Assembly: GCA_016844605.1 (NCBI GenBank)
Contig: JAENJD010000010.1
Coordinates: 1 to 43,902, forward strand
DNA length: 43,902 bases
Direction: 5' to 3'
Source of the DNA: Steroidobacteraceae bacterium
GTDB taxonomy: Bacteria > Pseudomonadota > Gammaproteobacteria > Steroidobacterales > Steroidobacteraceae
Shown: piece after piece, positions 8,829 to 10,552 of the stretch
How positions within the stretch are numbered: the first letter of the stretch is position 1
Layout: every line of letters begins with the position of its first letter
Program-made: the position numbers and the translations under genes
Notes under the pieces: generated by a model
What the model was told of the DNA's origin: nothing
The model's database searches: none
What the model saw: the letters and a program-made list of their open reading frames with translations, nothing else

Positions 8829-9499
8829 GCAGCGAGCGGGAAGAGCCGACGCGCAGTGGAATCGGAATGACCTCGGCGCGCACGCGCGAGCGCCTAATCC
8901 AGCGCCTCGTCGAGCAGGGAATCCGCGATCCGCGGGTGCTCGACCGAATTCGCAATGTGCCGCGGCATTTGTTCGTGGACGAGGCGCTGTCGAGCCGCGC
9001 ATACGAGGATACGGCGCTGCCGATCGGGCACGGCCAGACCATTTCGCAGCCCTATGTCGTCGCACGCATGACCGAGGCCGTGACGCTCGGCGGCGTCCCG
9101 GACAAGGTGCTCGAGATCGGAACAGGCTGCGGCTACCAGACCGCCGTACTGGCTCCGCTGGTTGGGCGGCTCTATAGCATCGAGCGAATCGAAGCCCTGC
9201 TCGACCGGGCCAAGGAAAACCTGAAGGAACTCGGCATCCGCAATGTGCGCTTCAAGCACGGCGACGGCAATGAAGGCTGGCCGTCGCAGGCGCCATTCGA
9301 TGCGATCCTGGTTGCTGCCGCACCGCATGCCGTGCCGCAGAAGTTGCTGGACCAGCTCGGCGAGGGTGGCCGGCTGGTTGCGCCGATCGGTCCTGAAGGG
9401 CGGCAGGAACTTCTGCGCCTGACGCGGCGCGGCGATCAGTACCTGCGCGAAAGACTTGGCCTTGTCAGTTTCGTGCCATTGCTGGGCGGCCTTTCCTGA
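8825..9499 (+). CDS. pcm: Protein-L-isoaspartate O-methyltransferase
   Basis: [44 protein letters not shown]...[20 protein letters not shown] overlap with surE. Confidence 0.97.
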
Positions 9500-9500
9500 G

Positions 9501-10214
9501 GTGGAGGGCGGCGCAAGGGTCGCAGCCGCGGTGCCCGGCCGTTTCCTGATCGTGGTGACAGCCCTCGCCCTGATGGCTTGTGCCGGCGCGGCGAAGAAGC
9601 CGGCTATCCCGGATCATCATGTCGTGCGTGCCGGCGAGACTCTTTATTCCATCTCGATGCGCTACCGACTCGACTATCACGATGTCGCGCGCTGGAATGG
9701 CATTGCTGCCGACTATCGCATCGATGCAGGGCAACGAATCCGGCTGAATCCGCCACCCCGAGCGCGGGCCAGGCCGGCTCCAGCCGTCGCCGCAGCGCGC
9801 GCCCCATCGCCACGCGCCTCGCCCGACGATCCCGCGCATCGTCCGCCACACTGGCGGTGGCCTGTGCAGGGCGGGCGCGTGATCGGAACCATCACGCAAC
9901 CATCCGGTGGACTGGGCCTGCGCATCGACGGCGAATTGAACCAGCCCGTATTCGCCGCAGCGGACGGCAGGATTGTCTACACGGGCAGCGGTCTGCGTGG
10001 CTACGGCCAGTTGATCATCATTACTCACGAGCGCGGCTGGCTCTCGGCCTACGGTCACAATGCGCTGGTCCATGTGCAGGAAGGCGAGACAGTGCGCGCC
10101 GGGCAGGCGATTGCCTCGATGGGACCCGGGCCGGATCAACAGACAATGCTCTACTTCGAAATCCGCCTCGACGGCCGGCCGCTCGACCCGCTCAAGCAGC
10201 TCCCGCCACGCTGA
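9501..10214 (+). CDS. nlpD: LysM / M23-fold lipoprotein, NlpD-like amidase activator
   Basis: N-terminal lipoprotein-like signal (ALALMACAGA), LysM repeat HHVVRAGETLYSISMRYRLDYHDVARWN, C-terminal M23-like domain VFAAADGRIVYTGSGLRGYGQLIIITHERGWLSAYGHN. GTG 9501 is the likely start. Confidence 0.88.
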   Translation: MEGGARVAAAVPGRFLIVVTALALMACAGAAKKPAIPDHHVVRAGETLYSISMRYRLDYHDVARWNGIAADYRIDAGQRIRLNPPPRARARPAPAVAAARAPSPRASPDDPAHRPPHWRWPVQGGRVIGTITQPSGGLGLRIDGELNQPVFAAADGRIVYTGSGLRGYGQLIIITHERGWLSAYGHNALVHVQEGETVRAGQAIASMGPGPDQQTMLYFEIRLDGRPLDPLKQLPPR

Positions 10215-10231
10215 ACTTGCGACTGGGCATC

Positions 10232-10303
10232 CGTCTGAAAAAGGGGACGCTACCCTTTTCCCAAAGGATCGAAGGAAAAGGGTAGCGTCCCCTTTTTCAG
10301 ACG
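10232..10303. repeat. Perfect 30-bp-arm palindrome (12-nt loop), each arm itself an imperfect hairpin; REP-like / bidirectional terminator-like element
   Basis: CGTCTGAAAAAGGGGACGCTACCCTTTTCC (10232-10261), loop CAAAGGATCGAA, then its exact reverse complement (10274-10303). Confidence 0.95.
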
Positions 10304-10552
10304 ATCAGTGCAATGGCGACTTCGCGAAATTCGGAGAGCAGCAGGTTGTAGGTGCGGCAGGCGGCGCCGGTGTCCATTACTTCCAGTCCGATGCCGTGTG
10401 AGGCAAACGCGGAAAATAATTCCGGTGGCGGCATGCGCTGCCTTGGCCCGGTGCCGAGAATCACGACATCCGCGATCGCGCATGCGGATCTCGCCTGCCG
10501 CATAGGCAGTGATCGCATTCGAGACATTTCCTTCTTCGCGGCTGATCTGCAT
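10297..10552 (-). pseudogene. Mth938-like domain protein (DUF498 / NDUFAF3-like) remnant with internal deletion and frame change
   Basis: N-terminal frame MQISREEGNVSNAITAYAAGEIRM; a different frame carries the C-terminal signature ADVVILGTGPRQRMPPPELFSAFASHGIGLEVMDTGAACRTYNLLLSEFREVAIALIV. The central ~40-45 residues usual for the family are absent. Confidence 0.78.

Follow-up and report, generated by a model that had tools for sequence, protein, structure and literature searches.

A perfect palindrome lies between two convergent genes in the window, the 43,902-nt stretch of Steroidobacteraceae bacterium DNA analysed here (assembly GCA_016844605.1, contig JAENJD010000010.1). This arrangement raises the question of whether the palindrome serves its two neighbours as a terminator or is one copy of a mobile repeat. 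A sequence-only reading had suggested both. We analysed the palindrome, its copies in the same assembly, and the corresponding sites and candidate transposase genes in related genomes.

Structure of the Palindrome and Its Neighbourhood

The features of the site are listed in Table 1. The repeat search paired 30 of the 30 positions of the arms (10232-10261 and 10274-10303) around a 12-nt loop and returned no other such inverted repeat within the window; the sequence and coordinates of the sequence-only reading were exact. The predicted RNA fold had an energy of -56.6 kcal/mol (z -12.5 versus shuffles), and the DNA fold gave -37.3 (z -13.0 versus shuffles). The isolated arms folded into the nested 7-bp/7-nt hairpins that had been noticed (-8.1 and -7.3 kcal/mol), but the long hairpin is far more stable than these two together. 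The complementarity of the loops (GACGCTA/TAGCGTC) arises because the arms are inverted copies of each other. Because this complementarity is forced by the inverted arrangement, and because folding as one long hairpin is much more favourable, a kissing-loop design was rejected.

Table 1. Features of the palindrome site in the window.
Feature	Position	Strand	Basis
nlpD-like LysM/M23 peptidase gene, upstream of the palindrome	9456..10214	+	
GAACTTGCGACTGGGCATC, probable decayed family-2 palindrome arm; G001 has GAACTTGCGACCCGGCACC here	10213..10231	+	
Family-1 inverted dimer, perfect palindrome	10232..10303	no strand	sequence, repeat search, fold
CGTCTG, palindromic extension on the left, particular to this copy; repeats the right flank in inverted form and has no counterpart in G001	10232..10237	+	
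Left repeat unit AAAAAGGGGACGCTACCCTTTT, 7-bp stem and 7-nt loop	10238..10259	+	
12-nt loop, part of the 24-nt inter-core spacer TTTTCCCAAAGGATCGAAGGAAAA	10262..10273	no strand	
Right repeat unit, AAAAAGGGGACGCTACCCTTTT on the minus strand; the plus strand reads GTAGCGTC across the loop	10276..10297	-	
CAGACG, right extension; belongs to the conserved 3' end of the DUF498 gene	10298..10303	+	
Truncated DUF498 (Mth938-like) gene, stop codon overlapping the palindrome	10297..10527	-	

The nlpD stop codon and the palindrome are 17 nt apart, and on the right the palindrome shares bases with the stop codon of the truncated, minus-strand DUF498 gene. The latter gene had been described as decayed, and this was borne out: it covers only positions 53-109 of PF04430, whereas the frame is intact in the sister genome G001 (about 90% identical) and encodes 131 aa. 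At window 10470/10471, approximately 113 nt of the G001 gene are missing and the reading frame is broken. The conserved 3' end of the gene, AGACGATCAG, which includes CAGACG, is also present in G001. The resemblance of the segment 5' of the palindrome to a family-2 arm (see below) was equalled by 2 of 2980 random window segments.

Family-1 Repeats across the Genome

The 2.09-Mb assembly contains 58 matches to the unit AAAAAGGGGACGCTACCCTTTT at ≤2 mismatches. A shorter 21-mer of the unit gave 59 matches with two mismatches allowed, at approximately 30 places and mostly in inverted pairs. The reversed control gave no match to either. The palindrome was thus the only copy in the window, as had been noted, but not in the genome. 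We refer to these repeats as family 1 and collected 25 inverted dimers, in addition to some singles and clusters. Both unit cores were identical in 22 of the 25 dimers (script listing), and the spacers were mostly 17 nt long with a sequence that varied from copy to copy. The 24-nt spacer of the window copy is identical to that of the copy on contig C80 (L019), which indicates that whole dimers can be duplicated as a unit. The 9-nt spacers were weakly but significantly alike (3.80 versus 3.03 matches of 9). This likeness led us to reject unrelated random sequence as their origin and makes common descent with much change more likely. Captured target DNA was also rejected as a source of the spacers, which showed no likeness to the same-site G001 sequence (permutation P 0.40); spacer length did not correlate with the length of that sequence (P 0.38, n = 8).

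Site context was assigned with a simple codon-usage gene caller. Only 5 of the 30 sites fell within predicted genes, and the probability of so few is below 1e-15 if 85-90% of the genome is taken as coding. The caller placed 14 sites between convergent genes; it missed the truncated DUF498 gene, and the window site therefore raises this count to 15. The intergenic bias that the sequence-only reading had suggested looking for is thus present. One of the intragenic copies, at L028:1023-1078 (C135), lies in frame inside glyS, the gene for the glycyl-tRNA synthetase beta subunit, where it adds 14 codons net; this dimer is absent from five relatives. At L010:5981-6115, one plus-strand and three minus-strand units lie between convergent genes, and G001 is empty there. 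At L024:2281-6142 (G000 C33), two family-1 dimers flank pstC-pstA-pstB-like genes (names from translations). At G001:C30:4710-4991 this gene group is missing, and a family-2 palindrome marks the point where its outer flanks meet.

A Y1 Transposase Gene Flanked by the Same Repeat

The assembly contains one gene above the cut-off for PF01797 (Y1 transposase; 62.9 bits versus a cut-off of 23). It lies on the minus strand of contig C119 (L013:2968-3654); contig C90 has a second Y1 relative that is much weaker. Family-1 units lie on both sides of the C119 gene, as the sequence-only reading had suggested looking for: a plus-strand unit at L013 position 2957 covers its 3' end, and two minus-strand units (3779 and 3810) are located 125-180 nt upstream of its start. 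The 228-aa protein carries the motifs NHVH, WQ, and YVELNP; NHVH and Y..E.NP are invariant across four homologs. It scored 73.2 bits against NCBIfam REP_Tyr_transpos, below the 80-bit cut-off. As a single sequence it gave no PDB match, and a profile of the four homologs matched TnpA_REP (4er8) and IS200/IS605 transposases (2xma and 2xm3). The protein has a C-terminal extension; TnpA_Y1 subclass 2.1 proteins have an HTH-like domain at the C-terminus, but no Pfam HTH match was obtained here even at E 10. A search of the genome collection with the C119 transposase returned only a 43% Omnitrophota homolog, flanked by AATAGGGACAGCGACTATTTT.

Two congeners possess orthologs with different flanking repeats. 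The G003 ortholog (64% identical protein) is flanked by GGGGACGCGTCCAATTA and the G002 ortholog (60% identical) by AAAAGGGGACAGTCCCCTTTT; both repeats are GGGGAC hairpins different from that of family 1. The G003 motif was found about 178 times in G003 and not once in the other six genomes, and the G002 motif had 52 palindromic matches in G002 and at most one elsewhere. Each repeat is amplified solely in its own genome, so that repeats diverge in step with their transposases. That the exclusivity runs three ways is the best argument that each enzyme moves its own repeat. The second-largest family-1 population was found in G006 (26 matches, loci L087-L094), and no transposase relative was detected in that 77% complete assembly. 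The G006 arms are more diverged, perhaps representing an older, orphaned population.

Comparison of Sites with the Sister Genome

We searched for the flanks of 24 family-1 sites in G001, and 17 were comparable, including the window and two comparable on one side only. Eight of the 17 were without any element in G001 and carried 9-39 nt of other sequence instead (segments picked by eye), so the sites are polymorphic between the sister species. A second palindrome, TTGGTGCCGGGTCGCA...TGCGACCCGGCACCAA (family 2), occupied five sites (window/C58, C61, C92, C33, and C115). At the C43 site, G001 has a family-2 palindrome with a family-1 variant nested inside, and three sites carry old family-1-like relics (C31b, C96, and C25). 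These empty, family-2, and relic sites indicate that the window copy is young and mobile, in agreement with the recent insertion guessed from its perfect arms.

Less expected was that the two palindrome families recur at the same sites. Family 2 was present at 6 of the 17 sites, versus 0.25 expected if all intergenic gaps are assumed equal and 1.9 if approximately 200 gaps, an assumed number, are usable (P 0.012). Family 2, the second palindrome family of the genus, is also tied to a Y1 gene: at L095:2046-3110 (G004 C12), a gene for a 295-aa Y1 transposase (REP_Tyr_transpos, 80.6 bits) is flanked by family-2 terminal repeats of about 31 bp.

Symmetry of the Copy-Specific Flanks

Another less expected feature is that each family-1 palindrome extends 2-6 nt into its local flank in a copy-specific manner (CGTCTG/CAGACG in the window). 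Beyond the first 3 nt, the mean run of outer flank symmetry was 5.68 versus 1.38 in swapped-flank controls (P 2e-4), and 3.50 versus 1.24 when nested copies were left out.

Relation to Known Elements

Two groups in the literature come into question, the GTAG-tagged REPs that accompany RAYTs and the TIRYT/TIRtron elements (PMC3733652). Judged by the motif signature and the repeats around the gene, the nearest described kind is the TIRYT/TIRtron group (TnpA_Y1 subclass 2.1). In common with this group, the C119 gene encodes a Y1 transposase with HUH and catalytic-tyrosine motifs (NHVH and YVELNP) and is flanked by inverted repeats with a GGGG-AC core, which have multiplied as dimers and clusters. 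The motif GGGGWSAS is common to some TIRYT repeats (Di Nocera et al. 2013, PMC3733652); the family-1 core GGGGACGC agrees with it at 7 of 8 positions and GGGGACAG of the G002 ortholog at 8 of 8, the comparison with the published TIRs being one of motifs. Some repeats are self-complementary in both, as reported for the TIRs of S. maltophilia ORF 1152 (PMC3733652).

Most published TIRYTs belong to TnpA_Y1 subclass 2.1, which corresponds to Bertels group 1 as given in PMC6006769. The C119 protein shares with this subclass NHVH, WQ, and Y-x-E-L-N-P (YVELNP here, YIELNP as published), its length (228 aa versus a median of 238), and the C-terminal extension. A survey reported that genes of this subclass had no REP-like sequences in their vicinity (Quentin et al. 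2018, PMC6006769), whereas the three congeneric genes described here each have an amplified cognate hairpin repeat. With IS200/IS605 the C119 protein shares the HUH/Y1 fold family, as its PF01797 and PDB matches suggest; it differs in having Y-x-x-x-N-P where class 1 has Y-x-x-x-Q and in being a single copy above the cut-off in the assembly.

Family 1 resembles REPINs and BIMEs (Bertels and Rainey 2011, PMC3116915) in that inverted units separated by a short spacer form one long hairpin and have spread without a transposase of their own. The copies are inverted pairs, mostly outside genes and polymorphic between relatives, like mobile dimers of that type. Family 1 differs in the absence of a GTAG foot, in its lower copy number, and in its spacers, which are different in nearly every copy. 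The CGTC REPs, with CGTC at the unit end and no transposase, were rejected as a match: in the conserved unit of family 1, CGTC is a loop sequence, and a transposase gene lies between copies of the repeat. The CGTC that opens the window palindrome belongs to the copy-specific extension, outside the conserved unit.

Discussion

The window palindrome is very probably a non-autonomous inverted dimer of REP-like type that inserted recently and was moved in trans by the C119 Y1 (HUH) transposase. The underlying observations are the dispersed dimers, the repeat-flanked transposase gene, the cognate repeat of each ortholog, the empty sites in G001, and the intergenic bias. The C119 enzyme would be the actual mover. 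By analogy with IS200/IS605 and TnpA_REP, it may bind hairpins in single-stranded DNA at replication forks, either those of single units (AAAAGGG-GACGCTA-CCCTTTT) or that of the dimer, cut them, and rejoin them at new places; new insertions would come to lie mostly just 3' of stop codons, where they are least harmful. Counting against this explanation are the G006 population, which has 26 matches and no detected relative of the enzyme in an assembly that is 77% complete, the REP_Tyr_transpos score below the cut-off, and the weak second Y1 relative on C90. Transposition is read here from genome comparison and not from observed events.

According to a rival proposal, selection has kept the palindrome for the convergent nlpD and DUF498 genes, either as a bidirectional intrinsic terminator or to stabilise mRNA 3' ends. 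This proposal draws on the position of the palindrome against both stop codons, its A5-stem-T5 layout and strong hairpin, and the enrichment of family 1 between convergent genes. We consider such a role, which the sequence-only reading had raised for termination, possible but unlikely. Other copies of this mobile family lie within genes, glyS among them, and the run comprises only five T that are paired inside the long stem. In G001, several of the orthologous convergent gene pairs do without a comparable palindrome, which is evidence against a terminator that is required. A terminator scan, limited to 20-bp stems and 8-nt loops, called no terminator-like site. Transcripts of either strand are predicted to form a very stable hairpin, and effects on termination or mRNA ends are therefore plausible, although they would be only incidental. 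A REP/BIME of the classical GTAG-tagged type, with a group 2-3 RAYT as its mover, would account for the inverted dimers, the intergenic bias, and the Y1 transposase, but is very improbable: no GT[AG]G stands unpaired at the hairpin's 5' foot, GTAG occurs solely within GGGTAGCGTCCC at the loop, and NHVH/YVELNP and a length of about 230 aa fit subclass 2.1 and not 2.2-2.5 (PMC6006769). The suggested RAYT-mobilised REP/BIME type thus stands as a mobile repeat with a cognate tyrosine transposase, but not as a GTAG-foot REP with a classical RAYT. All the checks on mobility named in the sequence-only reading gave positive results: copy number, intergenic bias, a Y1 gene between copies of the motif, and polymorphism, here between sister species.

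The symmetric flanks admit an addition to, and not a replacement of, mobilisation by the transposase. Dimers might be made or repaired in place by fold-back (template-switch) synthesis that copies an arm and a few flanking bases across, which would yield perfect arms and copy-specific symmetric flanks. The excess of within-copy symmetry over the swapped-flank controls, the identical arms, and the extensions at the window, C95, C61, and C18, which match the G001 flank on one side only (by eye), are in its favour. We nevertheless hold it to be somewhat short of an even chance. The shared spacer of the window and C80 copies makes whole-dimer copying possible, the symmetry already exists in G001 at C3, and it was weaker in the G006 replication (n = 8, P 0.006-0.05). 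Insertion into short pre-existing inverted repeats, as at C3, would also explain symmetric flanks. A fuller version, which we put forward only tentatively, is that insertion or fork repair might build or heal the second arm by fold-back, inverting a few flanking bases and deleting a short piece of the target, with palindromes of the other family as preferred landing or replacement sites.

Family 1 therefore belongs to an element type already described, and the signs of cognate amplification and recent movement are unusually clear in it. The manner in which REP-like repeats spread is an unsettled matter in the field. In the three congeners the transposase orthologs have diverged and each is accompanied by a GGGGAC hairpin amplified in that genome; there are also clean pairs of occupied and empty sites between sister species. 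This set is suited to testing enzyme-repeat recognition and the form of the insertion junctions. If the fold-back reading is true, the palindromes would be perfected and lengthened at each site.
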